From Paramacrobiotus metropolitanus (taxonomy: Eukaryota; Tardigrada; Eutardigrada; Parachela; Macrobiotidae), in the NCBI RefSeq assembly GCF_019649055.1, contig NW_026570261.1, forward strand, positions 1,099,330 to 1,163,329: a DNA stretch of 64,000 nt, given 5' to 3'. Within the stretch, counting starts at the first letter, position 1, and each line of letters opens with the position of its first letter. Below the pieces are notes generated by a model that did no database searches, was not told where the DNA came from, and worked only from the letters and a program-made list of their open reading frames with translations. A program made the position numbers and the translations under genes. Shown one piece after another: positions 20,842 to 46,859 of this stretch.

Positions 20842-21339
20842 TCATTCGTATATCGAGCGAGAAATTGCAAAGTCATCGTTGCAACGCGTGTCACAATTTT
20901 CGATCCCATGTACTTGCGTCCATGCATTACGTTCGGTGTCGTACATCTCTAACGTTTCCAACAATTTACCACGGTTCTTCGTGTTACTACGTCCGCCGTA
21001 AACATACAGTTGCGATTCGGCAACGAAAGCACAATGATTCCAGCGTGGCGTGCGCAGTGTGTCTAACGTTTCCCAGGCATGCGTTCCAAAATCATCCGCC
21101 AGGTTAAGACGGATGCATGAGTTCGGCAGTGCAGTTTTATTCGTCCATCCGCCAATGACATACAACTGAGAATCTAGTGCCACCATTGCAAATCCATGCC
21201 GGTTTTCTGGCAAGTCAGGCAGTGAATCCCACGCATCGGTTTTCGTGTCGTAGCGTGTGACCCATCGGTGGCGACCCAAGCCGGTCATGAAAATTATAGT
21301 GTCACCGCAACGCGCTCCAGCGCTGACGTGCCGTATTCT
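20842..21339 (-). CDS. Second kinase-kelch paralogue, 3' kelch exon
   Basis: The translation carries three kelch-type blades: GLGRHRWVTRYDTKTDAWDS with LPDLPENRHGFAM, SQLYVIGGWTN, and WNHCAFVAESQLYVYGGRSN, then KLLETLEMYDTERNAW. It begins after a TTACAG acceptor at 21340 in the same phase as the equivalent exon at 3378. The paralogy to 2949-3378 is obvious at both protein and DNA level. Here the blade glycines (GGW, YGGR) are better preserved, so this may be the more functional copy. The upstream exons expected to the right (kinase lobes) are absent: 400 bp on, the LTR element begins. Confidence 0.75.
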   Translation of the reverse strand, partial: RIRHVSAGARCGDTIIFMTGLGRHRWVTRYDTKTDAWDSLPDLPENRHGFAMVALDSQLYVIGGWTNKTALPNSCIRLNLADDFGTHAWETLDTLRTPRWNHCAFVAESQLYVYGGRSNTKNRGKLLETLEMYDTERNAWTQVHGIENCDTRCNDDFAISRSIYE

Positions 21340-21735
21340 GTAAGCAATGCATCATCACACATTAAAAAGCAGTTCTGTGTCGGACTAAGCACATACGGAC
21401 TGCTAATTCAAGTAAAAAGGTGGCTGTAGCAAACTGGATGCATTCCAAACTGGGAACAAAATCGGGAACAACTGTCTGGTTAAAATCAACGCTCGCACAT
21501 AAGTGCCGTCGAAGAACTTAGTCCGAATATTATGTGGCTAACACTTTGGACATAAAAATGTGGACGACATTCCCTTGCCGTGAATTATTACTCCTATAGT
21601 CTGTTTAATTAATCATGAGCAAGTCATTCTGCTTCCATAAGCATACGCATGTCAAGGTCAATGCAACCCATGCGACCGAAATATGGGTCGGTTTACCATC
21701 GATGGATTGCGCTATTAGAGAACAATAAACGTTAG
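21340..21735. other. Interval between kelch exon and LTR element
   Basis: About 400 bp, probably part of the intron upstream of the kelch exon. I see no exon of the kinase domain in it and no match to the receptor sequence lying beyond the other LTR. Confidence 0.4.
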
Positions 21736-22126
21736 TGTCAGATATGACACAGAAGCAGATGAAAAATGGGGCAAATATCGCCTTTATTGGTACAATAAAG
21801 CAACAACAACAACACAAAAACCAACAGAAAACCCAATGAGGGAAAAGCTGGAAAAAGTGCCTGCAGTGCGCTGGTGGGGAATCGTGATTAATGATTCCGC
21901 GTGCTGCGGGTGTGCAACAGCTGATGCTGCAAAGCATGGAATCGCCCGTAGGCGCAGGGCTCCACCCCCAAGAGTGCAGAGAAATGCGCTGATTGGTCAG
22001 CGTGGACAAAGTATACGCTGAGTAAGCAGCGTAATAGCGCGGCACGAATGGAGTAGCCATGTGCGGGCGGGCGACAGAGCAAAGCCACAAGAGGTGTCTA
22101 CCGCCTCGAGTGAGCGGTCTCTGACA
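21736..22126 (-). repeat. 3' LTR of the giant element
   Basis: 391 bp. It differs from the LTR at 46035 by one A/G at about 22089 and by one missing T at CCGCCTCGAG. On the coding strand it carries a CCAAT-type box (GACCAATCAGC), a G-rich GGGGGTGGAG box and AATAAA about 50 bp before its end. Host flank on the left is GTTAG. Confidence 0.92.
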
Positions 22127-24150
22127 TGCCTCTGGGCGGGAGTGGGAGCTCCTGCGAGCACCTTCCGACTCTGCCCCTGGCCAACCCGGTAGGGTGCCAG
22201 GATCCGATACCCGGTAGGGCCGGATGCCACTTTGTCTCTAAACCCGGTAGGGTCGCTTCCTCCAGACCCGCGGTGCAGTGCACCGAACGGCCGAAATCTG
22301 GAGTGCACTCTGGTTGCTGGGGGTTCCAGTGGGGTTTGAAGGCTTGGTTGGTCGAACAAGTAAAAAATAAAGTTTATAAGGCTCGTAGGTTAAACATCGA
22401 AATAAAAAAGATCACAATTCCGGTGAGAATTAAAGAAAGATCATAGTTAGAGATCCCAAAGCCAATTCCTTTGGTTAAATGGCTAAATAAAAACATCAAT
22501 TTCTTTGGTTATTAAAGTCTAGAAAAACCAGGTGTGGTTAAAAAACTAGACGAAACAAAAGGCTTATTCCGACTAGGTATACCACAGGGCCGCTTTTGTC
22601 CACAGGGGTCCTAGTCAACGGTCTGCTTTATCCGGTAGGATATGTCTGGTCCTGTGAATCCGGGGCGACGGTTCCCAGAGGTGTCCACAAGGATCCAGTG
22701 AAGTAATTCCAGCGGAGTTGTATGAGGAAGGCACGGTTGCATGCGCAAGGACAGGTTGTCCCCTTCCTGATTGTGGTGGACCAAGCCCGGTTGGGCGGTC
22801 CTAAAGGCTCTCGAATAACGCCTCTGAGCGGGAGGGGTGCTCCTGCTATCCAAAATGGTATGCTTGGACCGATTCCGTTTGGATGGCCCATATGGGTCTC
22901 TAACTTGGACCGGTTTTGGCCTTGCATGCCGGTTTGGTCATGCGCCTAGGTCCAAAATCTTCTAAGTCCAGGAGGGCCAACATGGAAAAATTTCTAAGTC
23001 CGAGGACCAAGTGGTGTAATGGGCCAAACCCGTTGGGGCGGTCCAAACTCGGTCTCTGACATGCTCTGGACCGGGATACAGGGTTCTGGAATGGTTTGGC
23101 CTTGATTGCAGCCTTTGGAGGGGAGTGGGTCCTGCATAACCGGTTTTGGCTCTCCGATTTGGACTTAGTCGTTTTTCGATGAGCCACGTCATTGGACGGG
23201 CCAAAAGACTTAGTCGATTTTCCAGTGGCCACGTCGTTGGACGGGCCAAAAGACTTAGAAAATTTTCGGTGGGCCACGTCATTGGACGGGCCAAAAGACT
23301 TAGTCGATTTTTCGACAGTCCAAAGTTGATGGCGGGCCAAAGTTGGTCCGTCTCACTGGCCGTGGGCCATGAGTTGGCTACCATGTCCGATGTGTCAGGT
23401 AGGTTTCCCTGAGACCGTGGCCATAACAAAATTAAGTGGCGTCTGATGAAAACATCAGGTTGGCCGGGCCAAACTCCAAAAAAATTAAGTTGTGGGCGCC
23501 GGTAGGCGTTTTCCACAAGGGAGTCGGTCTGCTGACTAGAAGCATCCTCTTTTGGCCTCGGGCGGTGCATCTTTTAGATGGGCCTCTGGGCGGTCCGTGG
23601 TGAGGATGATGGACATGGCATGCAAAATGGGTATACCACAACTTCTATGTGGCTCCCAAACTCCCTTGTCCCAGTTGCCTGGTATGGCAACTAAACTCGT
23701 GAACCATCTATGGTCGGTTAGACCCATAGTGGGCCTGGTCCAACTTCTATGGGCCAGGACTTGGCCTTGGCTTGTCGCAACTTCTATGCGGGCCAGGCTG
23801 ATCCACGGCTTGTCGCAACTTCTATGCGGGCCGTCGCCACATTCTGGGCGCTGGATCCTTTCCATGCCGGTGAACTTAGGCGTTGTGCCAAGTTCGGTCC
23901 GGTGGACTCCGTCGGATGGTCTGGGATGGCTGAGCCAAATTCATGGTCCCAGCCGCTAAGCCAGAGCCTATCCGGGGAATCCGGTTAAGATCCAGGGATT
24001 TAGGTCCGGTAAGGTAGACGGTACATGGCCGTAAGCCACGTTTGTTAGACGAGGGTAACAACCGTTAGATTGCACCCATCATGATATTCAAGTCCGATCC
24101 AGCTAATGTTGGTCCCTGTTTAGGGCCAACATGCAGGAATGGCCGTTGGC
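22127..24150 (-). other. 3' non-coding region of the giant element, with internal repeats
   Basis: Two kilobases with no convincing reading frame between the last ORF and the 3' LTR. It holds three tandem 45-bp units with ACGTCRTTGGACGGGCC followed by AAAAGACTTAG (starts about 23183, 23228 and 23273). It also holds repeated CAACTTCTATG blocks (about 23640-23830, including two copies of GCTTGTCGCAACTTCTATGC) and several CCCGGTAGGG boxes. A purine run is not found directly before the LTR on the coding strand, so the polypurine tract is not identified. Confidence 0.6.
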
Positions 24151-24880
24151 CTATCCCTGCCCTCCTTGTCCCGCTTGGTCGCCATCGCCCAACCCGGGGT
24201 TGAGTGGGTCGATGACGCTTTCCTCCATGTCCGCCAACTCCTGTTCGGTCTGGTTTGCTTGTTGTTGGCTGGAGGTGCTGGTCGGCTGAGCTTCTTGGCC
24301 AGGTTGTGTGGCCAGGGTTTGGACGTGTGCGGACGATCCTGTTGAGGATCGTTGGGTACGGAACTTCGTTGGAAGTTTCCTGGTCGCCGTTCGGTTAACG
24401 AACGCTTCCGCACCGTCATCGAAGTCCGATGGCTGTTTATAGCGGTAATCTTTAGCGCGACTCCTGTAAATGTTCAGGGCGCTTTGGATCTTGACTCCCG
24501 CTTCGATCTCGTGGATCTGGTTTCCCAGGAGAGCCACTTGGGTCAATAGCCGAGGGACGATTTTCCCTTGCCGGTAGGCAACTTCCAGTTCCCAATGGCA
24601 GTGTAAGTGGCCAAGTCTGGCGGCAAAGATGCGTATCAGCGTGCCATTGTAGGAATAGGTTTGTGTCGCTGGGTCGTCCTTGTGATCGGCTGGCTTGCAT
24701 GGGATTTCTATAGCCGCTCTGCAAGCTGCAATAATAAAACTGGCGTTCGCGTCCGGTAGGACAAACTGGGCCAGATATTTGACGACGTCAAGTTGGTCGT
24801 CCTTAATGTGCAATTGGCACAAGTCATTCCAGTCCGGTCTGGTGATGGGCTGTCCAAGTAAGTCACGTCCGTGATGCTCG
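24151..24880 (-). CDS. Accessory ORF D, C-terminal part (other frame)
   Basis: A frame of at least 223 residues, open upstream of its nominal start. The sequence upstream (LGQPITRPDWNDLC) reads more protein-like than the overlapping end of the preceding frame. This suggests one protein of about 660 residues interrupted by a one-base shift around 24855-24870. The first 130 residues are a globular, helix-rich segment (DDQLDVVKYLAQFVLPD, SFIIAACRAAIEIPC). The tail is Gln/Ser-rich and acidic. I do not recognise a family. Confidence 0.6.
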
Positions 24881-26114
24881 ATAGAGCATTGTCACGGACC
24901 ATTGGGTAGCCTTCTCGGTTTTCAATGTGGTCCTTCATGTTAAAGTCGCGGGGCCACTCTTTCCTCTGCATTTCCATTTCGAGGCCGGACCGGGTGACGA
25001 AGGTTTGCAGATTTTGGACCATGGCGTCAACTTGGGCCCATTTGTCCCTGGGGTATGGGATGGCACCCATGATGTAATCCGTCACAACCCGGTGGGGAAG
25101 TGGCCGGATGTTAATGCCCTGGTCCTCAGCATACTTGTAAGGATCAAAGTCCGAAGTGCTGCCAGATGTTGCAGGCTGGACCGGTAGGTCCGCCGCTGTC
25201 AATGTGGCCTCAGTCTCCATTGGTATTTGGATACTGATGTTGTGGGCCACTGAGCTGACACTTCGTTCTGGTCGCTTGGTGGACTGCGCGACAACCAGGC
25301 TGGACTCAGTTTCGTTCCGTTTCCCGGGTGATGTGCGCGGTTGGCGCTCGGGCTGGCTACGGCTTTGGCGTCCACTTTGGTCCTGGTTACGGCTCTGGAT
25401 CTGGTGACGTAAGTCATCTGGGTTCCGCGGTAGCGGTGCCAGTGGCGTGCGCTGTTCAGTGCGCGCTGGCTGGTATTGGCCTATTAAGGCGTCCAGCAGT
25501 CCACCTTCCATCAGCTGTCGGGCCACCTGGTCAACCATAGCTTTGTTGATGTTTTCCAGGATCGTTTTTTCGAACCCCTGGTTGTATTCCATGGGTATGG
25601 GCAACTCGTGTCCGTAGGATCGAGAGCCTGATGATGGCCGCTGATGGTCGTAATTTCTCGGGTCGGCCGTTGGGCCACGCCCTGAGGACTGGTCAGATCC
25701 TGAGTTGCGGGATCGACGTTCCCGGTCCCGCTCGTCCTTCCGTTCTCGAGCCGATTGGCTGAGTGGAGGAATCGGAGTTCCGGTACTGCACCAGCCAGGT
25801 TGTCGGGCGCCACTACGTTGCATGTAGAGATCGTAGATCTCTATCTGCTCATGATCCCTCAGTAGGGGAATCAGGTGGCTTCCGTCGCGGCTGGTCATAT
25901 GTATGTATGCGTCGAAGTTGCCTCTAACCACTTCAAGGTAGAAGCAGTAGGCTCTTTCGTTCTCGTCGCGGAAGCCCGGCCGCAGGTGGTATGCGCAGGG
26001 GAACAACTCCCGTGAGGAATTGTCCCGGCGGTGAGGATGTGTCATGCTATCGCCGCTGTTGCGTCTGCAGTCCGAGCATCGCGGTTCGTATTTCTGCTGC
26101 GGTGTAAGTCCCAT
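24708..26114 (-). CDS. Accessory ORF D, N-terminal part
   Basis: 468 residues in this frame. An N-terminal segment has paired cysteines (RCSDCRRN) and an aromatic globular stretch (CAYHLRPGFRDENERAYCFY, FDAYIHMTSRDG). A low-complexity Arg/Ser/Gln/Pro region follows at about residues 130-330. A second structured part then begins (YKYAEDQGINIRPLPHRVV, GAIPYPRDKWAQVDAMVQNL) and runs on in the next frame. Unrecognised family. No signal peptide or transmembrane helix, so it is not an envelope protein in any ordinary form. It starts about 190 bp after ORF C ends. Confidence 0.65.
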   Translation of the reverse strand: MGLTPQQKYEPRCSDCRRNSGDSMTHPHRRDNSSRELFPCAYHLRPGFRDENERAYCFYLEVVRGNFDAYIHMTSRDGSHLIPLLRDHEQIEIYDLYMQRSGARQPGWCSTGTPIPPLSQSARERKDERDRERRSRNSGSDQSSGRGPTADPRNYDHQRPSSGSRSYGHELPIPMEYNQGFEKTILENINKAMVDQVARQLMEGGLLDALIGQYQPARTEQRTPLAPLPRNPDDLRHQIQSRNQDQSGRQSRSQPERQPRTSPGKRNETESSLVVAQSTKRPERSVSSVAHNISIQIPMETEATLTAADLPVQPATSGSTSDFDPYKYAEDQGINIRPLPHRVVTDYIMGAIPYPRDKWAQVDAMVQNLQTFVTRSGLEMEMQRKEWPRDFNMKDHIENREGYPMVRDNALSSITDVTYLDSPSPDRTGMTCANCTLRTTNLTSSNIWPSLSYRTRTPVLLLQLAERL

Positions 26115-26304
26115 TCTCTGTGGTAACAGAAATGAAACTTGCAGAATGAGGTTAAGTCCGCTTTCTATGACGGGTCCCTATGATAATTACGCCCTATGTT
26201 TTACGTCCCTATGATTTTACATGTGATTTGTTAACTAGGCTTTTCTTGCCCGGTGAATTATTTCGGGATCACCCCCTAGACCCTATGCGAATTCTACGCC
26301 TAGG

Positions 26305-29300
26305 TCACTGATGGTAGGTACGCCGCTTCTTCTTGGACTTGGTTGAGGCCAAGGAGTCGGATTCGGTGGGACGAGGGCCGTAACGATCCGGTGGGATGTT
26401 ATGTTGTCTGTACCGCTGCTGGGCCTCGGGCTCGTCAACAGTTTGCTCGAGCCATCCTTCGTTTAACATCTTCCGTACGACGTATCTGACGTCCTCGCAA
26501 ATAGGGTACAACCCGCTAGGGCGGCCCTGGTTCGGCATATATGCTATCCCATCGATAAGTTGTGGATGGTGCGAGATGACGTTCAGATCGTATCGGCCCA
26601 GGAGCTGGTTGGCTATTTCGCCTTGTGTGAGGCCTAATGGGTGCTGAGTGGTGGTCAGCACTGTAAGGACGGCGTTACGCCATTCCCAATAGCCTTGAGG
26701 AGCTTTATCCACTTTTTCCGGTGGGAAAGTGTAGAAGATCTGCGTGTTAGGCAGATGCGTCCGTAGAATAGCTCCTTCGTTGTAAGCCATATATATGTAC
26801 TTCATCACTTTGGACTTGGACAGCGGTGGGCCATTCCATTTCTTGATGAGTTGGTAGGCCAAGCCCCCTGTAGCAAGGGTTGTACCCGTTTGGGACAACG
26901 CCTTTAGGGCCGCCTTAATGTATGCCCATCGCTTGTCAGAATTGGAGATCCTTGGCTTTTTAGAAGGGTCTCCGCCAGGCCATTTCCTGGCCACCTTTGG
27001 TGTTGGTGGCGAGACGTAATCAATCCGCGGTATGGCCGGGCACGGGTCAGGTAAAGTCCATGGAATCTCGCCATCATCTGATTCTGGTGAGGTCGAGTCG
27101 CGCATCCTTTCCCGTTCGGGCGATGCAGCGCTTCCACTTGGCTCAGCGTTGTCTACGCTGGCCGGACTTTCTTGGCTAGCGCCTTCTGCGCTGCCGTGTT
27201 CCTGGTTGGCACCTTCTGCGCCACCCTGGTCTTCCATGTCTTGGTCACCGCTAGGTGGCTGGTTCTCGTCACCGGGTGGTATTTCCATGTCATGGTCCGG
27301 TGGGAGGTCCATGGTAAGTTTACCAGGGCTTTGGTCATCATCATCGTCTGAGTCGGACTTTTGGGACTCCATGGTTTGGTCCTGGTCCGGCTCTTCTTGT
27401 TCGTCCTCCTCTGAGTCCTCCGGTTGTGAGTCCTCAGAGTCCGAATCACTTGGCTGCGGTGAGGGATCTTTTTTCCCTCTTTTCTTTGTGGCCGTGGCCT
27501 TTCGGCTCTTTGTGGATGTGGCCGATAAGGCTGGCGAAGGAGGTCTGGACCGGCCAGCTGCGTTAGGCAGTGACACAGTGTCCCTGGGCACAGGCCGAAT
27601 TCCGGCTGCGCGCATCTCGTCTTCCGCTTCTTGGCGTGCAGCCAGCTCTCGTCTTGTGACGGATGGTCGAGGAGGCTTCTCTACCGGCAACTTCTTTGGA
27701 CCAGGCAGTTTGGCCACTTGGGAGATCAAGTATGCCTCCTTGGCTCTGCCGGTCAACTTGTCTTTCGGCGGTCCAGCCGCTTTCTTTCTGTCCGGATCCC
27801 ATTTTGTGCCCACGTCGTGTGACACATACAGAGACCGTTGGGTCTTCTGCGGGATGAACCCAGGAATAGTGAAGCGGATCGGCTCCGCCCGGTAGGCGTT
27901 AGTTGTTTCTAAAGTTCCGTCCTTGACCAACGCTAACAACTCGTCAAGTATGACCTTTTCCAGTTTCTCCAGGTCCTCTTCTCCTTTGTAATAGAGAGCA
28001 TTAAGGGTCCTGACAATGTCGACCAAGTTGGAGCCTCTTGGGTTGTGCAGGTAAGCGATGGTCCTGCATATCTGGTGAAAGGCGTAATCCCGGCTACGGG
28101 AAAGCCCTGCTGGCCGATGAGGCACGTGAAGCTCCATCATGCTGGTCCAGTCACGGTGCGTGCGGACCAGAAGTCCCATGTCCAGGATGAGAGTTACTAC
28201 ACGCCGCGTGAAGGGTGCCGTCAGTACACGGTCCGCTGGCGGTAGCCCTCTGAATTCTTCTCCATGTGCCATTCTGGCTCGGAGAACTCGGACGAGACAT
28301 TGGTACATGTCTCTTCCTGTTGTGCGTCTCATGATCCTGGCCGCTGCCACCCATTGGCGCACATATGGACCCGTTGGGATCTCAATGTGCGTGGCCTCCG
28401 GTCCGGGGTCCGGGAGCTCAGCTTCGTCGTCCGCCGGCGCGGGGAGCATTGTTTCCTCCGAAGGCGGTTCACCGTCGGGAACTGGCTCAAATTCCTCTTC
28501 TTGCCATGGACGATATTGTGGTGACTCTTGTGACTTGCCCATACTGTCCGATAGGACTTGGACGTCTTCATCGCCTGACAGCCGTTTTTCGAGCTGGGCG
28601 ATCTTGGCCTCTTGACTTTTCTTGTCTTTGGCCGCTTGTTTCTTCTGGCGGTTCCGTTCGGCCTCTGGATTAGATGTTGGCCGTGATACGGTCGCCTGAC
28701 TTCCACTCGGTTGAGGGGAGTTTGGACGAGTGGCCGGTTTGGCCCTCGGTTGTGGGGAAGTTGGACGAGAGGCCGGTTTGGCCCTCTCTGGGTTTTTGGC
28801 TTTTCTCGGCTGCTTGCTCCGTTGGGAGTTAGCTGAGTGAATCACACCCAGGCCGAGTGCAAAATTCTCCATTGTCCCTGTTGCAGGGAATGTAACTGGA
28901 CGGCCAAAAGGTATATCGTCGATGCTGGCTGGCATGTTCGTCAAGTTTATCGGAGCAGCGGCCGTTGGCCCTGTTCCGGACTGACTTTGGCCTGCCGATT
29001 CTTGTGCCGACGAAGTGGCCTTCGGTGGCTCCTCCGGTTGGGCTGGTTCTGGCTGTGGTGCTGTGGCCACAGGTCCAGACGGAGAAGTGTCCATTGGCTC
29101 TGAAGCCGCTGGTGGTTGTGCCTGCGTCTTTGGCGGTACCACAGTTGGTGGCGCATTTGACGACAGGGTTTCAGCCATTCTAAAGTCTTCCTCCGGTGGG
29201 GGGAAGGCTTTCTGGTTGCGACGGCGCCGGTAATCATCTATCATCCGTAGGACCAAGGATCGGAGCATTTCGGTTATCATGTCGTATTCTTCCATACGAT

Positions 29301-31221
29301 TCTGCTCCTTGGCCTCCTGTCTCATTGTGAGCAGGAACGGATATTGCCGGCGCTCATTATGGTCAGCATGGATCAGTAAGTGTCTCTGCTCGATAGGAGT
29401 GAGAGCACTCATGGGCATCAAGGCCGCGTCAGCTTCCATTTCTTGGGCCGAGACAGCCGGAGTTATCCGCACCGTCGTTCTGGCCGATTGTGCGACCACT
29501 GGTGCAGGAGTCCTAACCGTGACCGTTACTGGTTCAAGTGTTGAATCTGCAGACACCGTAGGTGCTGCGATTCGTTCCACAGTAATGGTCATCGTTGGCT
29601 CTGGAGGAGGTGTTGTATCCATCCTCTCTTTGGTTGGGGACTTGCCTGGCCGGCTCGGTGTGAACCTGGCGGGCGCCGGTTCGATGGCCGGCATACTGGG
29701 CATTCGCGCCGGGGTTGATGTGGCGCGTCCATGAGAAGTCCGTTTTGATGGAGATCGACTTTGGCGTGGCGATTCCTTCGTTGAAGGTAGCCGGACCTGA
29801 CTGGTCTCATATAACGCCCTTTGGACGTTTTCGTCCAAGTCTTCCTCGATCTCCGACTCCTCGCTGGAGGAGACGCCCCAGAAGGCCGCTGGCAGTTGAG
29901 GACGTTCGTCCTCACTTTCTGCTTCTTCCGGTGGAAGTTCGTCTTCCACTGGCTGGCCTGGTCGTGGGCGGGGTTCAACTGTCCATGCCCTTGGGTTAAT
30001 GTGAGGGCCACGGATGTAGATGGCATGCTCGATGATTTCGCTAGGCAACTTGCGTTGGCGAAGTGCCTGGCTCTTGCTTCGCATAGCCATCAGTTTTCTG
30101 ATGAGGATTGTACGTCCTTGGACCATCTGTTGACAGCCGCGGTTGATGCGGTCAATCTCTCGGTCCGTTAGTGTAGGATCGCCGGCGCGTAGTCGCTGGC
30201 GCATATCTTCCTCAGTCAAATTTAAGCGTAGATCAAGTTCTATGATCTCGCTTACAAGCCGGTTATGCGGGTCATCCCATGACTCCGTTTGAGTCAATCG
30301 GATACGATGCCTCGTTGGAGGTTCGTCCCGCAATGGCTGTGTCGTTCCTGACGGAATCTTTGGTGCTTCCGGTGGGGAGAGCACGTGTCCCTTGCCAGGA
30401 AAAGTCTTTGGCGGCGACTTCTTCTTGGTCGGTAGACCGCGAAGTACTAAAGTCGGTGGTTCCGCCTTCTTTGGTTTAAGTATGGACCGGCCTGGCCTGG
30501 TAGGGCCAGGAACATCTGTGTCCGTTGGCGGGCCACTCCGCTCTGGTAGAGTGGGCCTTGTTGGGCGGTTCGACTCCAAGTTTTCTCTTGGCCCTCGCCA
30601 AGGTGGGAGTGACCGTTGTGAAGGAGGCTCTTCCGCTTCCGGGGGAGTCCTCTTCTTCTTCTTAAATCTAGGCGACTGTGGGCCACTTGTTGTGGCAGGA
30701 GTGGCCGGTTCTGGCCGTCCTCCTGTCGATTTCCTAGGCGTTGGCCGGACAACGAGGGTGCCACTTGATGTGTCGCCTTCAATTGGCTTCGGTGTAGGCT
30801 GTGATGACACCGTTGGTGCATCAACAGCCATTGGGCTTGTCGGTTCACCAGCCAGTTGGACTGGTGTTGGCTCCGTTTCGGCCGACTTCTCTGGCGAGAG
30901 TTCCAGAGTTTTGTCCTGCAGGACTACGTCCATTTCGACGTCCTGCTGTTGGACTTCTGTACTGTTGCCCGCTATAGCGGTTCCAGAAGTGTCCATAAGT
31001 TGGTCAGATGTTGGACCAGGCACCGTTAGGGCCTGGGCCAATTCAGCTGGAGTTGGTTGTCCAACTGATGTTGAGGCGGCCGGTACATATGTCAGGGCCA
31101 GAGGTGTTGGCGCAGACACCGGTGATGGTCGCCATTCGTTTACTGGATCGAAGTCACTGAGCGTGCCGCCGTTGGCGGACGTGGGACTTTCCAGTAATCT
31201 TCGATAAATTCTCGGATCCAT
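26305..31221 (-). CDS. Accessory ORF C (1638 residues)
   Basis: The longest frame in the window, intact. The first 1000 residues are mostly disordered (Pro, Ser, Thr, Glu, Arg), with some helical stretches (EDMRQRLRAGDPTLTDREID; EQRHLLIHADHNERRQYPFL). Two compact segments stand out: about residues 985-1150 (VRQWVAAARIMRRTTGRDM to EPIRFTIPGFIP), and the C-terminal 190 residues (KRWAYIKAALKALSQTGTTL, GLTQGEIANQLLGRYD, YVVRKMLNEGWLEQTV), whose pattern suggests tandem winged helices (my inference). An acidic tract precedes the latter. ATG 31221 overlaps the end of ORF B by 82 bp. No known family recognised. Confidence 0.7.
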   Translation of the reverse strand: MDPRIYRRLLESPTSANGGTLSDFDPVNEWRPSPVSAPTPLALTYVPAASTSVGQPTPAELAQALTVPGPTSDQLMDTSGTAIAGNSTEVQQQDVEMDVVLQDKTLELSPEKSAETEPTPVQLAGEPTSPMAVDAPTVSSQPTPKPIEGDTSSGTLVVRPTPRKSTGGRPEPATPATTSGPQSPRFKKKKRTPPEAEEPPSQRSLPPWRGPRENLESNRPTRPTLPERSGPPTDTDVPGPTRPGRSILKPKKAEPPTLVLRGLPTKKKSPPKTFPGKGHVLSPPEAPKIPSGTTQPLRDEPPTRHRIRLTQTESWDDPHNRLVSEIIELDLRLNLTEEDMRQRLRAGDPTLTDREIDRINRGCQQMVQGRTILIRKLMAMRSKSQALRQRKLPSEIIEHAIYIRGPHINPRAWTVEPRPRPGQPVEDELPPEEAESEDERPQLPAAFWGVSSSEESEIEEDLDENVQRALYETSQVRLPSTKESPRQSRSPSKRTSHGRATSTPARMPSMPAIEPAPARFTPSRPGKSPTKERMDTTPPPEPTMTITVERIAAPTVSADSTLEPVTVTVRTPAPVVAQSARTTVRITPAVSAQEMEADAALMPMSALTPIEQRHLLIHADHNERRQYPFLLTMRQEAKEQNRMEEYDMITEMLRSLVLRMIDDYRRRRNQKAFPPPEEDFRMAETLSSNAPPTVVPPKTQAQPPAASEPMDTSPSGPVATAPQPEPAQPEEPPKATSSAQESAGQSQSGTGPTAAAPINLTNMPASIDDIPFGRPVTFPATGTMENFALGLGVIHSANSQRSKQPRKAKNPERAKPASRPTSPQPRAKPATRPNSPQPSGSQATVSRPTSNPEAERNRQKKQAAKDKKSQEAKIAQLEKRLSGDEDVQVLSDSMGKSQESPQYRPWQEEEFEPVPDGEPPSEETMLPAPADDEAELPDPGPEATHIEIPTGPYVRQWVAAARIMRRTTGRDMYQCLVRVLRARMAHGEEFRGLPPADRVLTAPFTRRVVTLILDMGLLVRTHRDWTSMMELHVPHRPAGLSRSRDYAFHQICRTIAYLHNPRGSNLVDIVRTLNALYYKGEEDLEKLEKVILDELLALVKDGTLETTNAYRAEPIRFTIPGFIPQKTQRSLYVSHDVGTKWDPDRKKAAGPPKDKLTGRAKEAYLISQVAKLPGPKKLPVEKPPRPSVTRRELAARQEAEDEMRAAGIRPVPRDTVSLPNAAGRSRPPSPALSATSTKSRKATATKKRGKKDPSPQPSDSDSEDSQPEDSEEDEQEEPDQDQTMESQKSDSDDDDDQSPGKLTMDLPPDHDMEIPPGDENQPPSGDQDMEDQGGAEGANQEHGSAEGASQESPASVDNAEPSGSAASPERERMRDSTSPESDDGEIPWTLPDPCPAIPRIDYVSPPTPKVARKWPGGDPSKKPRISNSDKRWAYIKAALKALSQTGTTLATGGLAYQLIKKWNGPPLSKSKVMKYIYMAYNEGAILRTHLPNTQIFYTFPPEKVDKAPQGYWEWRNAVLTVLTTTQHPLGLTQGEIANQLLGRYDLNVISHHPQLIDGIAYMPNQGRPSGLYPICEDVRYVVRKMLNEGWLEQTVDEPEAQQRYRQHNIPPDRYGPRPTESDSLASTKSKKKRRTYHQ

Positions 31222-33917
31222 TTTGTGGTGTGGTCCATAACCGTTAACGATGGACCGGTAGGCATCGTATGGTTAGAAGTAAGACCTTTAAGCAGAGCCA
31301 CCCGTTGGGCCAAGCTCTGTTGCTGTTCCGTCAGCCTGACCGCTTCTGGGTCAAACGGGCTGAGTTCTTGGATCCGGTTGGTTATGCGGCGTTCGACATC
31401 TCCAGCATCGCTGATAAGGTGCCGAATGCTCAGTGCTTGGACAACCGTCATTTGCATGGGCCCAGTGTCAGCTTCGCGTAACCGTTGGTTCGCTGCTGCC
31501 TGTTCATCATCCCATTGCTGACGTAAAGTCCGAGGGGCCGGTCGATTGTCGTCATCCGGCTGGTTTAGTAGCGGGAAGTCGTCCGCGTAGGCCGTTCTGC
31601 CTCGCGTAACGTTGCCCCTCATGATCAGTTCCAGGCGTTCCGCTATGGCTGGTGGTGGCGCCAGTGAAGTTGGCCTCGGGTGGACTTGTCGTTCTGGCGC
31701 GACCAGGTGATCAGGCGGAGCTGTTAAGCCTGGTACTGGGATTGGGTCTGGCATGTCGAACCACTCAATGTCGCTGTCGGTTTCTGTGTCCGACGCGCTG
31801 GCTGGTCGACTTAGTGCTGGTCCGGCTGCAAATCGTTCAGCCGAGATCCGCATAATTCTCGAGACTCGCATCCTCAATTCTTCTGCCGGTTGGCGTGTTG
31901 AGGACCGTGTCGGTATGAGAAGTCCGGTTTGTCCGACGCGTGTTGGCTGCCCCGGTCGGGGTTTGGGTAACACGCGCCTAAGTGCTTCGTCGATCAGGCC
32001 AAGCTGGTATTGCCGGTTACGGAAATCGCGCAATGATGGTGCGTCGTTGGCCGTATCCAACGGCTTATCCATAAACCGAAGCATGGCCCGTCTAATCCTG
32101 GTTATGTATTCCAGGACGCGTTGGAATTCCAGGTCCAACGCGACTTTTCTCCGTAAGGTGGCAATATCCACTCCCTTCAGGCTACTGATAACCTTACGGA
32201 TTTCCTCTTCGAGGCGTTCCGCGGCGTGGAGTTCACGCTCCAAGGGAGGTATGTCTGGGTAAGCCCTTAGGTCATACGGAGAAGATGCTGGTTCTCGCGG
32301 TTCCAATCCAGTGGCCGTCAGCATTGCCTCGTCGGTAGACGTAGGCTGGGCCACTGGTGGCGCGGAAGATTCCCCTGTCGTAGCGGTAACTACGACTGTT
32401 GGGTTCAATGGTGGAGGTGGTGCTGATGGTGCTGGTGGCGGACGTGTTGGTGCTGCGGATCCTTCGGTCCTCAGCTGTCTTTCCGTCCGATACTGTTCCA
32501 GCTGGTCTCTCAGCCTGCGAGATGCCGCCAACAGTGCCTGACCAGTTTGGTCATGCAAAGGAAATATCTCGTTTTGAGCTTGGCGGGTCGCTATTTCCTC
32601 GCTAAGTTCATGAGCGAGACGCCGGAATTCATCTTGATCGAGAATGATGCGCTGAGCCATCTCACGGTAGTGAGGGCTGCGGCTGTCCAATTCTCGAATC
32701 ATGGCCTCCAATTCTTGGATGGCGTTCTCTACTTCCTTCAGATTGTCCTGAAGTTGGTAGAGTGGAGTCCGGCCGTCGGCCAGAGGTTCAGTGGGGGATT
32801 CAATCCGCAATGGTGGGGTAGTTGGGTCCCATTGGACGTCCCCTTCGTCTTCCGGCTCTGGCGAAGACACAGATTCTGTCGGTGGGACAGTCTGGTCACG
32901 CCTTATTACACACACTGGATTCAGTGGTGGTTGTGCTGCCGGTGCCGGTTCGGTTAGGCCATGTTGGGCCGCCAGTTCCGGTGGAACCTCTTCTGGCCGG
33001 TTATATATGGTGAGCCGTCCATTCACAAATACCCGTAATGGGTAATCACTTGGCTCGTTGAGCTGTGATGTGCTTGGCTGGGTTTCCGGCGGCGCTGGAG
33101 TTTGGTAGGCTTCCGGTCCCGCTCGTGGAGGCTCAATGGATGAATCAGACGGCGCCTGGCCCGTAGGGTCAGGTTGTGCCGCTGAAGGTGGGCTATACGG
33201 CGGTTGGCCGTATGCTCCATATCCGCCATAAGGCGGTGGATATCCATAAGGTGTAGGCGGATACATCCACGGTGGTGGGTATCGCCACTGATTCGGATCC
33301 GGCTGCGGCTGGTTTGAAGGTCCAGGCGCAGGGTATGGTGGATATCCATAGTAAGGGTTATGGTATGGAGGCGGAGTGTACTGTGGCCGCGGTCCAGTAT
33401 GGACCGGTGTAGTCGTGACCGTTGGCCCGACTGCCGCAGTGGTGAAAACTGGCTGACTCGCCGAAGTGGTCGGTAGGCCACCATACCGAATTGGTTGATG
33501 TGAGCCGGTACGGCCGTGAGGATAATGTCGGATCGTTTGGTCCGATGTTGAGCTTGGCTGGCTTCCGGCTACTGCCGCGTTGACCAAGAGTCCAGTACCG
33601 TCAGAAAATGTCCCTGGCGGGCAAAGTTGTGGCGGAATGGCTCGAGGTGGCAGAGGCTGTGACCGCGGTAGCGGTGTGTCGGCCCGTGAACTGGGGCCGA
33701 CTGACATAGTTGCCAGCTGCTCGGCGGTTAGGTTGGCCCTAATATTAGGTACCTGTACACTCGGAGGCCGGTTAGACGACCGAGTGGAAGATCCGCCCGA
33801 CCGGGATTCCGGTCGTGAGTATGGATGTGTGCGGTTACTGCGGTCGGAGTCATCAGAGCGATCAGTGCGTCGGCGTCCGTCCATCGTTGAATGGGGCGCT
33901 GTCACGAGACGAATCAC
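31140..33917 (-). CDS. Accessory ORF B (925 residues), Pro/Tyr-rich
   Basis: Intact frame. The N-terminus is Arg/Ser-rich. Residues about 190-270 are a Pro/Tyr/Gly low-complexity region with PPPY (twice) and PPYSPP, which resemble PPxY motifs that bind WW domains. A helical, probably coiled-coil region follows (LQDNLKEVENAIQELEAMIR), and later helical blocks of similar type recur (LERELHAAERLEEEIRKVI; RRITNRIQELSPFDPEAV). Recurring helix plus Pro-rich spacer gives a structural-protein look. No enzyme motif, signal peptide or membrane segment. A 160-bp gap separates it from the preceding ORF. Confidence 0.7.
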   Translation of the reverse strand: MIRLVTAPHSTMDGRRRTDRSDDSDRSNRTHPYSRPESRSGGSSTRSSNRPPSVQVPNIRANLTAEQLATMSVGPSSRADTPLPRSQPLPPRAIPPQLCPPGTFSDGTGLLVNAAVAGSQPSSTSDQTIRHYPHGRTGSHQPIRYGGLPTTSASQPVFTTAAVGPTVTTTPVHTGPRPQYTPPPYHNPYYGYPPYPAPGPSNQPQPDPNQWRYPPPWMYPPTPYGYPPPYGGYGAYGQPPYSPPSAAQPDPTGQAPSDSSIEPPRAGPEAYQTPAPPETQPSTSQLNEPSDYPLRVFVNGRLTIYNRPEEVPPELAAQHGLTEPAPAAQPPLNPVCVIRRDQTVPPTESVSSPEPEDEGDVQWDPTTPPLRIESPTEPLADGRTPLYQLQDNLKEVENAIQELEAMIRELDSRSPHYREMAQRIILDQDEFRRLAHELSEEIATRQAQNEIFPLHDQTGQALLAASRRLRDQLEQYRTERQLRTEGSAAPTRPPPAPSAPPPPLNPTVVVTATTGESSAPPVAQPTSTDEAMLTATGLEPREPASSPYDLRAYPDIPPLERELHAAERLEEEIRKVISSLKGVDIATLRRKVALDLEFQRVLEYITRIRRAMLRFMDKPLDTANDAPSLRDFRNRQYQLGLIDEALRRVLPKPRPGQPTRVGQTGLLIPTRSSTRQPAEELRMRVSRIMRISAERFAAGPALSRPASASDTETDSDIEWFDMPDPIPVPGLTAPPDHLVAPERQVHPRPTSLAPPPAIAERLELIMRGNVTRGRTAYADDFPLLNQPDDDNRPAPRTLRQQWDDEQAAANQRLREADTGPMQMTVVQALSIRHLISDAGDVERRITNRIQELSPFDPEAVRLTEQQQSLAQRVALLKGLTSNHTMPTGPSLTVMDHTTKWIREFIEDYWKVPRPPTAARSVTSIQ

Positions 33918-34109
33918 GCGGTGTTAGACTCCTACCTACTGTGTTAGTTCAAAGTACGGCTAGCTAATTCTTAAGCTACCATGTCAGACCAACTTAGGCT
34001 ACTTTTAGGCTACTGGTTAGTTAATTTTAGGTTAGTTAATTTCGGTAGCAGCTCACGAAGATGATCGTGGGACTTTAGGTTAGTTAGACTAATTCTAAGT
34101 CTGAATTAA
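33918..34109 (-). other. Short spacer with TTAGGTTAGTTA-type repeats
   Basis: 190 bp between accessory frames, with repeated TTAGGTTAGTTA/TAGGCTAC-like stretches (about 33985-34095). It is A/T-rich in contrast to the G/C-rich coding blocks on both sides. It could hold an internal promoter or splice signal, but I cannot tell. Confidence 0.35.
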
Positions 34110-34559
34110 TTATGCGTCCTTCTGTCCAGCCTGATGAGCCGCCTTGTCCAGTACATCCGGTGGGACTGTACTGGACTTGTCCGATACGTCCGGTAGGACC
34201 GTATTGGACTTCTGCTTTTTGCCCTTTGAGACTTTCTCTGATTTTTCCCGTCCTGTGGTTATGCGGGTGAGCAAGTCTTTTTCCGCCTCATCTTCAGCAA
34301 CTACGTCCTCTTCCAGGACTTGCTGGGCCGTAAGGGTTGCCTTAGGCTTCTTGGGCGTCTTTGGTTTCTTGGGCTTTTCCTTGGGCGCCGGGGCCACCTT
34401 TGGCCCTTCGGTCGCCGCTGGCTTGTCCGTAGCGGATGTTCCTTTTTCTGGTTCCGCCGGGGCCAAAGTCGGGTCAATAGCGGCCAATGGCTGGTTTTGG
34501 AGTTTTGAAGCGCCGGTGTCTCGAAACTGGTTTGGCCTTTCGAGGTCGGCCTGGGCCAC
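34110..34559 (-). CDS. Accessory ORF A (149 residues), Lys/Pro-rich
   Basis: Overlaps the last 86 bp of the integrase frame. It has a Pro/Ala/Lys tract (PKEKPKKPKTPKKPK), an acidic helical part (VLEEDVVAEDEAEKDLL) and a C-terminal pair of similar segments (TVLPDVSDKS, TVPPDVLDKA). It may be a separate protein or a frame-shifted extension of the pol C-terminus; both frames look coding-like near the overlap. Function unknown. Confidence 0.45.
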   Translation of the reverse strand: MAQADLERPNQFRDTGASKLQNQPLAAIDPTLAPAEPEKGTSATDKPAATEGPKVAPAPKEKPKKPKTPKKPKATLTAQQVLEEDVVAEDEAEKDLLTRITTGREKSEKVSKGKKQKSNTVLPDVSDKSSTVPPDVLDKAAHQAGQKDA

Positions 34560-36759
34560 GCTTTACTGGTGGCTCTGGGTCTGATGTCTTTGAGTCAGGT
34601 GGGCCATAGCCAGGGATTCGCAAAGTCTTTTGTTGCTCCGCCACAAGTTTCTTGGACGGGCCCTTTCCGGGCTTCTGCTTTTTCAGCAGCGTCTCAAGTT
34701 TGCTCTGGGCATGTGGGAGCTCTGCATCTTGTCCTGGCTCTGCCTTGTTATTGCACCTTTCCGACTCTGTGGGTTCAGGTTCCGCGTCGCCGCTCTTCTT
34801 CTTGGATGAGCGTGTTATTCTGCGACTCGGGCCGTCCGGGTTAAGGTACGGCTTAAGGCGATCGACACATACAGTGTGTTCTACACCGGTGTCCCGCTCT
34901 CGGATCCAGTAAGTGTTCGGCTTAGGTATGCCGATGATGGTGTAGACGCCTTCGAACTTGTTTGGATTAGTCGGGTCGTCTACCATGTTCTTTAGGGTGA
35001 CCAAGTCCCGTTTCTTGAACTCGGCCTGCGACTTCTTCTTGTTATAGATGGCCGCATCCCGTAGGAACCCTTCTTCGATCCGCGTTTTGGCAATTTCATG
35101 CGCCCGGTTCAGGCGCTGCTGCATCCTCTTGACATAACGTTCGTTAGTCGTAAAAGTTTCTGGGACGTTGGTCCCAGCGAGGACGTCTTGTGGTATGGTC
35201 ATTTCTCGTCCAAACAACATGTGGTATGGCGAGAATCCAGTGGTTGCGTGAACGGCACGGTTCATGCCGGAGATCACGTACGGTAGGGCCCGGTGCCAAC
35301 GATGTTCATCGCCGGCGCCGCCAAAGTTTCGAATTCCGTCCCAGATGGTTTGCATCTGGCGTTCGACTTGGCCTTGGCCCTCAGGATGATACGCGGATCC
35401 GAAGGTCTGCTCAATGCCGAAGATTTTCGCCACTTTGGCGAAAGATTTTGCCGTGAAATGCGTGCCCCGGTCGGAGTGCATTGTGTGTGGCATGCCGTAC
35501 TTTAGTACGACTTCTTCGACAAAGAACTTCTCAAATTCCTTGGCCGAGTTTGTCTTGGTCGGCCGGGCTATGGTGAACTTCGTCATTTGATCAACCACCA
35601 CAGCAATGTACCGGTATTTCTTTGTTTGTGTTACCGGTAGAGGTCCTTTGAAGTCGGCGAAGACGCGATACCATGGCGCAACAGCTTCAGTCGGCTGCAG
35701 CATACCGTAGGTAGCTCGCCGCGGTACTTTGCCGAAAATGCACGTCTGACATCGGTCGATGTAGTCGTGTATGTCGCAGCTCATGCGGTCCCAGTAGTAC
35801 CGGAGTTTGGCTGCTTCAATGGTCTTGCGGTATCCAAAATGATTCCCTGTTTTGCCATCATGGAGGGACTGGATAATGTTCTTCCGCATGAACAGAGGGA
35901 CAACGAATCTCCTTTCGAGTTTCGCATTGATGTCGGTGAGTCGGTAGAGCACACCTTTGTCCATCTGATAATGTTCAGGTAATTTGGACCTCTTGTCCAT
36001 TTCGCTTTGATGTTCCAACTCATGGATTTTCTTGGCCAGAGTTGGATCACGGTGTTGCATCCGTCGCAGTTCTTGCGCGGTGCGGTCCGTGACTTTTTCT
36101 GGACACGGTGGGACTTTGGGCTCTGGCTCTCCCGGTGTGGGCGCCGGTACATTGATCACCCTTATGTCCGCCGTGCTGAATTGATCCCAATCTGTTATTG
36201 CGTTGCAATCGGGAAGGAGAGGCTTATCCCATTCGGTTGCGGGGTCCTCGTCCGTGACTTGCAGCCTGCGCACCTTTATGATGCGTGCTGGAATCTCGTC
36301 CTTATAATCCTCGAAGTTAGGGACTTGGTCCAACTCTTCGTGTGGGCCTTTGTCGTCGTCCCGTTCGAGTGGCCATCTGGACAATGCATCAGCATTGTCA
36401 CAGAATGTGCCTGGCTTGTACTCAATGGTGATGTCCCTTCCCTGTAAGGCGAGGGCCCATCGAGTAAGACGAGGATTGATGCCGGGCCGGTTAGACTCGC
36501 ATCTGAGCAGATTGGTTAGGGCTCTGTGGTCCGTCCTTACTGTGAAAGGTCCGTGGTCAATATAGTGCTTGAACTTTTGGACGGCCCACACTACGGCTAA
36601 ACATTCCCATTCGGTCACGCCGTAGTTTTTCTCAGCTCCATGTAGGACACGGCTTGCGTAGGCAATTGGCCTCGAGTCCTGGCTGAGTATGGCTCCGATG
36701 CCAGCGCCACTTGCATCACATTCGATGGTGGTCTGTTTGGTCGCATCGAATTTGGCCAA
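34474..36759 (-). CDS. pol: pol: RNase H and integrase
   Basis: 761 residues. RNase H acidic residues are visible in IECDASGAG (about D15), TEWECLAV (E50 or E52) and VRTDHRAL (D77). Integrase has a zinc-binding HHCC (H300, H307, C337, C340) and the catalytic triad D369 (FADFKG), D430 (HSDRGTHF), E466 (GQVERQ), with exactly 35 residues between the last two. A GPY/F-like tail (KFEGVYTIIG) follows, then a long basic C-terminus with an AT-hook-like RGPGRPRK. The product would be cut from a polyprotein. The frame opens near 36759, because a one-base shift in an A run (about 36785) separates it from RT. Confidence 0.93.
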   Translation of the reverse strand: MAKFDATKQTTIECDASGAGIGAILSQDSRPIAYASRVLHGAEKNYGVTEWECLAVVWAVQKFKHYIDHGPFTVRTDHRALTNLLRCESNRPGINPRLTRWALALQGRDITIEYKPGTFCDNADALSRWPLERDDDKGPHEELDQVPNFEDYKDEIPARIIKVRRLQVTDEDPATEWDKPLLPDCNAITDWDQFSTADIRVINVPAPTPGEPEPKVPPCPEKVTDRTAQELRRMQHRDPTLAKKIHELEHQSEMDKRSKLPEHYQMDKGVLYRLTDINAKLERRFVVPLFMRKNIIQSLHDGKTGNHFGYRKTIEAAKLRYYWDRMSCDIHDYIDRCQTCIFGKVPRRATYGMLQPTEAVAPWYRVFADFKGPLPVTQTKKYRYIAVVVDQMTKFTIARPTKTNSAKEFEKFFVEEVVLKYGMPHTMHSDRGTHFTAKSFAKVAKIFGIEQTFGSAYHPEGQGQVERQMQTIWDGIRNFGGAGDEHRWHRALPYVISGMNRAVHATTGFSPYHMLFGREMTIPQDVLAGTNVPETFTTNERYVKRMQQRLNRAHEIAKTRIEEGFLRDAAIYNKKKSQAEFKKRDLVTLKNMVDDPTNPNKFEGVYTIIGIPKPNTYWIRERDTGVEHTVCVDRLKPYLNPDGPSRRITRSSKKKSGDAEPEPTESERCNNKAEPGQDAELPHAQSKLETLLKKQKPGKGPSKKLVAEQQKTLRIPGYGPPDSKTSDPEPPVKRGPGRPRKAKPVSRHRRFKTPKPAIGRY

Positions 36760-40299: not shown

Positions 40300-40760
40300 T
40301 TAAGGAAGGTCCGTGAGCTTTTTATGGTTCGCACCGTTGGTGTGGTGCCGAGGGGTTGTCCACCGATCTGGGGCCAGCAGGTACGGGGACTTGACGCCTC
40401 AAGAGGTTCGGTTGTCCAGTCTTTTAGGGATCCGACCTCACTGTCCGTATCTTGTACGGACCATCCTTCCGTTGCGCTGTCGGAGGATGTGTCTGACGCC
40501 GATTGTGGATACGTCATATTCGTGGTGCGACGTCTCGCTTTGCCACGTGTTCGGTTGGCCTTTGGGTTGGTTGAGGCTCCGAGTTTTGGTGATCGGTTGG
40601 CCTTAGGGTTAGTTGAGGCTCCGAAAATCGACTTGGTCGCCAGCTGGACGACTGTCGGCCTGGCATCACTTTTAGAGCCAGGTGGCTCAAGCGCTGGTTT
40701 GCCGCTGAGCCTGGATCCACTGGTGGGCTGTTGAGCCATAGGGGTTAGTTTGGGATCCAT
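40182..40760 (-). CDS. pol: pol: N-terminal segment
   Basis: 192 residues from ATG 40760, 90 bp after the gag stop. Basic and low-complexity, with a repeated GASTNPKANR segment (DNA repeat at about 40545-40620). Its last 35 or so codons run in a frame different from the protease frame. The shift lies at an A run near 40295, where a -1 slip or an indel would join them. Gag and pol are thus separated by a stop and a new ATG rather than overlapping as in most Ty3 elements. Confidence 0.6.
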   Translation of the reverse strand: MDPKLTPMAQQPTSGSRLSGKPALEPPGSKSDARPTVVQLATKSIFGASTNPKANRSPKLGASTNPKANRTRGKARRRTTNMTYPQSASDTSSDSATEGWSVQDTDSEVGSLKDWTTEPLEASSPRTCWPQIGGQPLGTTPTVRTIKSSRTFLNTKSMFPPYGLRKHHHRKSLSRRSLYHPSMLLTIQDQCR

Positions 40761-46016: not shown

Positions 46017-46034
46017 CGAACGATAATGCTACCA
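46017..46034 (-). promoter_or_regulatory. Primer-binding site
   Basis: Directly inside the 5' LTR the coding strand reads TGGTAGCATTATCGTTCG. The leading TGG pairs with the CCA end of a tRNA. The first eight bases (TGGTAGCA) match the complement of animal initiator-methionine tRNA ends; the rest does not, so the tRNA remains unassigned. The position fixes the transcription direction as minus. Confidence 0.75.
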
Positions 46035-46426
46035 TGTCAGATATGACACAGAAGCAGATGAAAAATGGGGCAAATATCGCCTTTATTGGTACAATAAAGC
46101 AACAACAACAACACAAAAACCAACAGAAAACCCAATGAGGGAAAAGCTGGAAAAAGTGCCTGCAGTGCGCTGGTGGGGAATCGTGATTAATGATTCCGCG
46201 TGCTGCGGGTGTGCAACAGCTGATGCTGCAAAGCATGGAATCGCCCGTAGGCGCAGGGCTCCACCCCCAAGAGTGCAGAGAAATGCGCTGATTGGTCAGC
46301 GTGGACAAAGTATACGCTGAGTAAGCAGCGTAATAGCGCGGCACGAATGGAGTAGCCATGTGCGGGCGGGCGACAGAGCAAAGCCACGAGAGGTGTCTAC
46401 CGCCTTCGAGTGAGCGGTCTCTGACA
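46035..46426 (-). repeat. 5' LTR of the giant element
   Basis: 392 bp, beginning TGTCAGAGACC on the coding strand and ending TCATATCTGACA. It has the same CCAAT, G-rich and AATAAA elements as the other LTR. It abuts receptor coding sequence at 46427 (flank AGAAA), which does not match the flank GTTAG at the other end. Confidence 0.92.
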
Positions 46427-46859
46427 AGAAACAGGAAACGGTTACGGAACGCATATTATGACGCCTCCGATAAACATGCGGATAGGTTACCACCACCCAC
46501 CGATTAATGGTGATTAAAAGATGGGAATTGGCCACAACGGCGAACAACACCCAGCTGGCAAACGTATAGAAGGCGCATTGACCAACCGTCAAATAGTCGT
46601 CTGGTAGGATGTTAACCAGATCCAAGGGGATGACAGTGACACTGGCCACAATATTGATGGCGAAAAGATGGAGCAGATAAATACCAAAGTATGCAGAGCG
46701 GTCACTTTTGGTTTGGTATACGGAAAATGCGGCCAGGGCGTTTAGGATTACAATGGAGACCAGAAAGACAGCGTAGACAGCAGCAGCGACTGTTCGACCA
46801 CCGACAGATTTCAGAAAAATGTTGCCGAGATGGGATGTTGAATTATTCGTGCTTGCCAT
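46427..46859 (-). pseudogene. Class A GPCR, 5' half, truncated by the LTR
   Basis: ATG 46857-46859 (MASTNNSTSHLGN, an N-glycosylation-type NNS/NST start). It has TM1 (AVYAVFLVSIVILNALAAF), TM2 (FAINIVASVTVIPLDLVNI), TM3 (WVLFAVVANSHLLITINRW) and the start of TM4 (MRSVTVSCF), then runs into LTR sequence. The remaining half, which the copy at 62606-63567 retains, is not found at the left flank of the retroelement. The initial codons are in frame here, unlike in the mirror copy. Confidence 0.85.

Follow-up and report, generated by a model that had tools for sequence, protein, structure and literature searches.

The DNA analysed here, called the window below, is a 64,000 nucleotide stretch of the genome of the tardigrade Paramacrobiotus metropolitanus (RefSeq assembly GCF_019649055.1, contig NW_026570261.1, positions 1,099,330 to 1,163,329). 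Its minus strand carries, between positions 21736 and 46426, a 24.7 kb long terminal repeat (LTR) retrotransposon of the Ty3/gypsy type, in which several long frames follow the integrase. A first-pass annotation, made from the sequence without database searches, had named these open reading frames (ORFs) A to D and taken them for four separate accessory proteins; compared with other copies they turn out to be a tail of Pol and the pieces of two genes, ORF2 and ORF3. These two genes are inherited parts of the element, found across the diverged families of a clade and maintained by selection. The features of the element, in its own 5' to 3' direction, are the following (copies and places elsewhere in the genome are given by our handles, C or L with a number).

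46035-46426, minus: 5' LTR, 392 bp, direct repeat with 21736-22126, ends TGTCAG...CTGACA
46017-46034, minus: presumed primer-binding site, TGG directly after the LTR
40850-45019, minus: Gag, 1389 amino acids, a separate ORF in the copies, with an N-myristoylation-like start, a coiled coil and one CX2CX4HX4C knuckle
40856-40862, minus: candidate site of a -1 frameshift, GGGAAAC read as G GGA AAC, a little 5' of the gag stop
40182-40760, minus: start of the Pol frame, the first piece in this broken copy; one frame with the protease in L047, L048 and L052
38410-40191, minus: Pol piece with aspartic protease, Pfam RVP and gag-asp_proteas above cut-off
36716-38446, minus: Pol piece with reverse transcriptase (RT), Pfam RVT_1 at 5e-28, closest solved relative the Ty3 RT at 3e-47
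34474-36759, minus: Pol piece with RNase H and integrase, Pfam RT_RNaseH, Integrase_H2C2 and rve
34110-34559, minus: ORF A, C-terminal tail of Pol
31140-33917, minus: ORF B, which makes up the N-terminal part of ORF2; rich in Pro and Tyr, with helical-looking parts and two PPPY motifs
26305-31221, minus: ORF C, remainder of ORF2, one frame with B in relatives
27622-28464, minus: conserved middle region of ORF2, at least 141 matches in the own genome, down to 31% identity
26308-26964, minus: conserved C-terminal region of ORF2 with a basic stretch at its end, 152 or more matches across the own genome, the weakest at 33% identity
24708-26114, minus: ORF D, first piece of ORF3, long open frames in relatives
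24151-24822, minus: second piece of ORF3, its frame broken in the window copy
22127-24150, minus: 3' stretch without an assigned gene, containing a 45-bp unit in three tandem copies (23162-23311)
21736-22126, minus: 3' LTR, 391 bp, direct repeat with 46035-46426

The order of the Pol domains found by Pfam along the minus strand, protease, RT, RNase H and integrase, is that of Ty3. The Ty3 affinity was judged from the best solved relatives found by sequence search, which were the Ty3 RT and, for the integrase, whose zinc-binding and core domains lie inside 34474-36759, the Ty3 integrase (2.6e-40). By domain order, by these nearest relatives and by the TG...CA ends of the LTRs, the element classifies as Ty3/gypsy (Metaviridae). 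The LTRs had been reported to differ at two positions, and they do, by one substitution and one 1-base indel. A pattern of 15 bases, derived from the complementary sequence of the primer-binding site, occurs exactly at two places in the genome, in the window element and at C7:2622476, just past a gag match of the same element family; no tRNA with a 3' end fitting the site was found by an exact 15-mer search of the own genome.

All eight fetched gag copies, the window's included, share the start MGQ[TI][EQ]S, which resembles an N-myristoylation signal, and the zinc knuckle, one knuckle having an internal stop. The coiled coil of Gag is indicated by weak BRE1/SMC matches, and the capsid region gave a single match to PDB sequences (E 1.3). 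In the same eight copies GGGAAAC stands just ahead of the gag stop, and in six of the eight loci the -1 frame opens 28 nt ahead of the stop codon, the other two (L050 and L051) having later breaks. Under the heptamer rule, as we assume it to apply, GGGAAAC is probably a working frameshift site.

The frames 3' of the integrase have 149, 925, 1638 and 468+223 codons, and the long frames described in the first pass are thus real; their division into genes is different. ORF A shares the frame of Pol in 27 of the 29 copies that allowed both to be placed, from 30 loci given, and 23 of these 27 have no stop; the exceptions are the window and C110, and A is therefore read as the C-terminal tail of Pol. 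An AT-hook-like motif, in the window KRGPGRPRK near the end of 34474-36759, stands near the end of Pol in 25 of 27 copies. ORFs B and C make up a single frame of 2540, 2559 and 2542 codons in the three relatives fetched (L039, L040 and L041). Among the 19 fetched copies, the window's included, in which the match to B extends to residue 914 or further, C is in the frame of B in 18, the exception being the window, and since this holds for 18 of the 18 other testable copies, B and C are regarded as a single ORF2 with about 2,540 codons. ORF2 is open over 2,540-2,559 codons in five copies (C110, C6 twice, C21 and C23), three of which were translated; C257, with 2,532 codons in one listing and 2,212 in two others, was left out of this count. 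ORF D and the frame at 24151-24822 are joined into one ORF3, because they are continuous in the sister element L053. ORF3 has about 0.7k amino acids; among the 150 relatives listed, 65 have an open frame of 700-830 amino acids around its domain, interrupted in three cases by a stop within the match.

With A in the Pol frame, B and C in one frame, D continuous with the frame after it and Gag keeping its own stop, the family layout reads as LTR - Gag - (-1 frameshift) - Pol - ORF2 - ORF3 - LTR. The window copy itself is broken, with Pol spread over five frames and ORF2 and ORF3 over two each. Each of the six breaks, of which Pol has four and ORF2 and ORF3 have one each, is an overlap of two long frames, a pattern that may also fit leftover assembly indels. 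Two of the four frames had been described as fully open; open they are, but instead of two intact genes they represent one gene cut by a frameshift.

Selection was estimated between copies as the ratio of nonsynonymous to synonymous substitution rates (dN/dS, Nei-Gojobori), with a reading of those alignments shifted by one base as control for each gene. Pairs with dS outside 0.03-2, doubled loci and matches shorter than 100 residues or below 45% identity were excluded. The following medians were obtained from pairs which share ancestry and hence are not independent (in parentheses the pairs used out of those with at least 100 codons, the number of copies and the pairs below 0.5): 0.191 for gag (28/28, 8 copies, 28), 0.166 for the C-terminal part of Pol (347/347, 27 copies, 346), 0.258 for the Pol tail A (400/406, 29 copies, 331), 0.223 for ORF B (435/435, 30 copies, 435), 0.245 for ORF C (413/416, 30 copies, 404) and 0.213 for ORF D (15/15, 6 copies, 14). 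Medians of the +1 shifted controls were 1.03-1.48. All 435 ORF B pairs fell between 0.10 and 0.42, and in successive 100-codon bins with usable pairs the ratio was 0.12-0.50 over B and C together and 0.12-0.41 over C; the last short bins of B and C had no usable pairs. ORF2 and ORF3 are thus under purifying selection, with dN/dS of about 0.2, and the first-pass claim of selection on coding has come through the comparison between copies that its author had proposed for challenging it. That both genes are kept by selection across many copies suggests that the element needs them for some step yet to be described. ORF B, with 55 matches in the own genome, diverges faster than Pol: C168 is 92% identical to the window in RNase H-integrase and 65% in ORF B.

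The linkage of the two genes to Pol was examined over the own genome. Scoring covered 150 of 276 candidates for the C-terminal ORF2 region, 139 of 393 for the middle region and 150 of 496 for the ORF3 domain, which has at least 150 matches; the listed matches include many partial copies, and the linkage counts are lower bounds. For the count around Pol, 8 fragment rows of 67 were dropped; there and in the other linkage counts 144 rows of 152 C-terminal ORF2 matches were used. At 40 of 59 listed Pol matches the C-terminal ORF2 region follows downstream on the same strand, no more than 20 kb away (controls: one on the other strand, one upstream), and the spacing was 7.35-7.83 kb in 30 of 37 linked core matches. 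The ORF2 domain lies 1.3-1.7 kb upstream of 65 of the 150 listed ORF3 matches (controls 0 and 0). At ORF2 identities below 45%, ORF3 is downstream of 65 of the 74 listed ORF2 matches.

The same arrangement is seen in a sister family (RT identity 63-66%), where an ORF2 or ORF3 domain follows within 25 kb in 22 of 29 RT copies (controls 0 and 1); among core RT copies a module domain follows in 31 of 47 (controls 2 and 2). For these counts 3 fragment rows of 79 were dropped and 54 of 141 middle-region rows used, those below 45% identity, with one core fragment left out. A third branch of Pol has the ORF2 region in C50 and C4 (58-59%); for C58 (55%) it is not among the listed matches. Around the 150 listed RT matches of other families, none of which coincide with listed core or sister RT matches when compared by eye, the ORF2 region follows downstream on the same strand, no more than 25 kb away, in one case and is nearby on the other strand in three more. 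Being linked to core and sister Pol and almost never to the other RT families listed, the module belongs to this clade of Pol. The possibility raised in the first pass that the extra frames had been captured in the window copy alone is answered by the 40 of 59 Pol and 22 of 29 sister RT linkages.

Searches for relatives of the two proteins outside the element gave little. Pfam returned nothing above cut-off, and no recognised enzyme domain, for A, B, C, D and D2; NCBIfam gave only coiled-coil and other matches below cut-off, and PHROGs no informative match. Among the best 7,999 candidates by shared words in both searches, the protein relatives of ORF B and ORF C were two P. metropolitanus gene models. 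One of these, named titin-like, is a piece of ORF2 and as such a misannotation. None of 814 candidates in the protein database matched the ORF3 domain, the matches listed for the C-terminal region of ORF2 against viral contigs contained no relative, and PDB sequence searches with ORF C, ORF D and the ORF3 domain gave no match. In a Kyte-Doolittle scan, which is not a trained predictor, no 19-residue window above 1.6 was found in any ORF of the element, in agreement with the earlier statement that the frames after the integrase lack a membrane helix; the neighbouring G-protein-coupled receptor (GPCR)-like fragment reaches 2.51 on the same scan. With no membrane segment, and with their linkage to Pol among the matches listed, ORF2 and ORF3 appear unlike an envelope gene or captured host genes.

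Hints of a fold come from the conserved regions of ORF2. The C-terminal region matches RPA_C in four of seven members (best E 0.0011, below the Pfam cut-off), and the middle region matches linker histone in three of seven members (best E 0.14, the window's own sequence not being one of them) and MarR (E 0.45). These three we take to be winged-helix families. The C-terminus of ORF2 is basic in all seven alignment rows. The tandem winged helices that had been read at the end of ORF C thus gain these weak matches; the matches are sub-threshold, and the two regions of ORF2 do not resemble each other.

Taken together, the explanation that we favour, with somewhat better than even confidence, is that the window holds one broken copy of a giant Ty3/gypsy family, of which ORF2 and ORF3 are inherited parts, with ORF2 acting as a scaffold. 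Its anatomical and selective part we hold with high confidence, and the two genes most likely constitute an old, clade-wide accessory module of a giant retroelement without an envelope gene. ORF2 would be a large oligomerising scaffold: its Pro/Tyr-rich, helical N-terminal half might contact further proteins of the particle or the cell, its conserved C-terminal regions might bind nucleic acid or chromatin, and ORF3 could be its partner; the pair would serve the assembly, transport or nuclear stage of the 24-kb RNA or cDNA. The first pass had proposed nuclear targeting, silencing evasion or an expanded particle as possible roles. We give a little less than an even chance to the broader proposal that ORF2 and ORF3 together form, in a clade of animal retroelements, a hitherto undescribed two-protein system that is neither envelope nor enzyme and enables a 24-kb retrotransposon to perform a step that smaller Ty3 elements skip, for which particle enlargement, genome packaging and nuclear or chromatin handling are candidates. 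More tentative still, and to be put at about one chance in three, is the specific idea of ORF2 as a nucleic-acid- or chromatin-binding scaffold.

Several observations weigh against this explanation. Selection is looser on the Pol tail A, with 331 of 400 pairs below 0.5, and 7 of the 29 RT copies of the sister family and 16 of the 47 core ones had no module domain among the listed matches. Family matches below threshold are the basis of the winged-helix reading: RPA_C recurred in two of five A2 members on a second scan, its model gave four matches over the genome with no ORF2 places among them, and a profile comparison of the middle with the C-terminal region found no significant likeness. The PPPY motifs are not above what composition gives (2 against 0.84 expected, with 20% of shuffles reaching 2). 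Four of the 29 sister copies, with long Pol frames (C42, of which L053 is part, C19, C163 and C37), leave no room for ORF2, since RT and ORF3 lie 3.6-4.2 kb apart in them, compared with 12.7-14.6 kb in 13 of the 20 sister copies that have ORF3 listed; ORF2 may therefore not be needed in cis, or other copies may supply it. These short-spaced copies are possibly a non-autonomous form, and if the two-protein system is real, the copies lacking ORF2 would be its parasites.

Of the alternatives, the one that survives best is that ORF2 is a nuclear or chromatin factor which, with the AT-hook tail of Pol, steers integration or shields the element from silencing. The weak linker histone, RPA_C and MarR matches, the basic C-terminus and the AT-hook-like motif in 25 of 27 copies would fit such a role, but every match to a curated family is below cut-off and Pfam finds no chromodomain, the mark of the chromovirus branch of Ty3/gypsy (none at E up to 0.1 in 34474-36759, none at E up to 1 in 34110-34559), and we consider this account unlikely, if by no means negligible. 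Distinctly less probable is that ORF2 and ORF3 stand in for an envelope, the element passing from cell to cell with a myristoylated Gag and PPxY motifs that recruit the budding machinery. For this speak the conserved Gag start in eight of eight copies, the presence of two PPPY motifs in ORF2 in all 27 copies, 26 of which keep their spacing, and the movement of MDG1-group LTR elements without an envelope gene between cells by an accessory protein, as described in the accessible part of PMC11952523. The MDG1 factor is, however, a short transmembrane protein according to the same source, whereas no ORF here has a hydrophobic segment, and the PPPY count does not exceed composition. Identity of ORF2 or ORF3 with env was rejected on the same hydropathy scan, which likewise gave no sign of an errantivirus-like envelope protein with signal peptide and transmembrane segment. 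Capture of a host gene or neighbouring transposon in the window copy only, now decaying, might explain the broken frames and the titin-like name of one public gene model; we regard it as very improbable and ruled out by the dN/dS of about 0.2 between copies and by the linkage to Pol across core and sister families, and no host homologue was found in Pfam or among the protein database candidates scored. The faintest chance of all is left to the frames being by-products of a GC-rich composition (52-57% in the element against 35-49% in the flanks, with long antisense frames also occurring), an artefact excluded by the 0.10-0.42 of the ORF B pairs against shifted-frame medians above 1 and by the recurrence of frames of 2,540-2,559 codons in five copies.

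The element resembles LTR elements in which further genes follow pol, and its scale resembles that of Burro. The latter, a giant gypsy-like LTR element of planarians, is in the accessible part of its description (PMC6431247) likewise of animal Ty3/gypsy type, longer than 20 kb and present in many copies, with much additional coding capacity whose function is for the most part unknown. It exceeds 30 kb in total, with an internal region of up to 25 kb, and encodes a 4,873 amino acid polyprotein with BIR, MATH_TRAF_C, BCL2-like, ankyrin and env-like domains, the env-like one between gag and pol. Unlike Burro, the window element has separate Gag and Pol frames, extra genes after the integrase and LTRs of 0.39 kb, and none of these five domains was found in it by Pfam; on the missing domains and the separate frames, as set against that description, membership in Burro was rejected. 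LTR retrotransposons of bdelloid rotifers share the possession of an extra ORF besides gag and pol, which is varied and not always env. Their ORF3s, in what is accessible of PMC5408684, are GDSL esterases, DEDDy exonucleases and env-like or small transmembrane proteins, whereas the ORFs of the window are far larger and none of these domains was found in them by Pfam. With the MDG1 group carrying sORF2 the element has in common the absence of env and a conserved accessory gene; sORF2 is, in the portion seen of PMC11952523, a short transmembrane protein, unlike the ORF2 of about 2,540 amino acids without a hydrophobic segment, and no protein of that type was found by hydropathy among the element's ORFs of at least 110 codons. 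Plant LTR retrotransposons, as far as the accessible text of PMC7264820 describes them, also have an extra ORF between pol and the 3' LTR that is kept in most copies and often has no known role; they belong to plants, and no named Pfam or NCBIfam family matched the ORFs of the window.

No description of this element family was found in titles and abstracts on Paramacrobiotus or on tardigrade LTR elements, in mostly openly readable literature; a paper on the curation of tardigrade repeats treats Hypsibius and Ramazzottius and, in its accessible part, does not name Paramacrobiotus (PMC11071193). The length limit of retrotransposons has traditionally been put near 10 kb, according to the portion available of PMC6431247. 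In the present clade the coding sequence amounts to about 20 kb, and nearly half of that belongs to no known family and is under selection, which makes the clade a direct test of what allows retroelements to grow. For gene catalogues the consequence is that a public gene model called titin-like belongs to ORF2.

Other RT families of the same genome have single open frames of 3,517-3,610 codons (C78:477360, C76:464689, C13:640823 and C52:901114), which by their reading frames look like another set of giant polyproteins. Such RT frames of about 3,500 codons were rejected as members of the present family, as they are absent among its listed RNase H-integrase and RT matches.

Target-site duplications mark insertion and are often lost, and are not decisive for the family; none flanks the window copy, the only one considered, where the left flank ends in GTTAG and the right begins with AGAAA. 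The element adjoins or interrupts a GPCR-like reading frame: a frame at 46427-46859 is truncated at the 5' LTR (7tm_1, E 9e-7, just under the Pfam cut-off), and the opposite flank shows no obvious continuation. Beside the 3' LTR, at about 20900-21400 on the minus strand, lies a sequence which by eye we take to be a Kelch-like repeat protein. Elsewhere in the window, on the plus strand, 6221-9192 holds endonuclease and reverse transcriptase domains of a separate LINE-like (long interspersed nuclear element) element in two overlapping frames, and 16536-18740 another reverse transcriptase domain. A clear GPCR frame (7tm_1, E 1.5e-16) is found near the contig end at 62815-63567, also on the plus strand.

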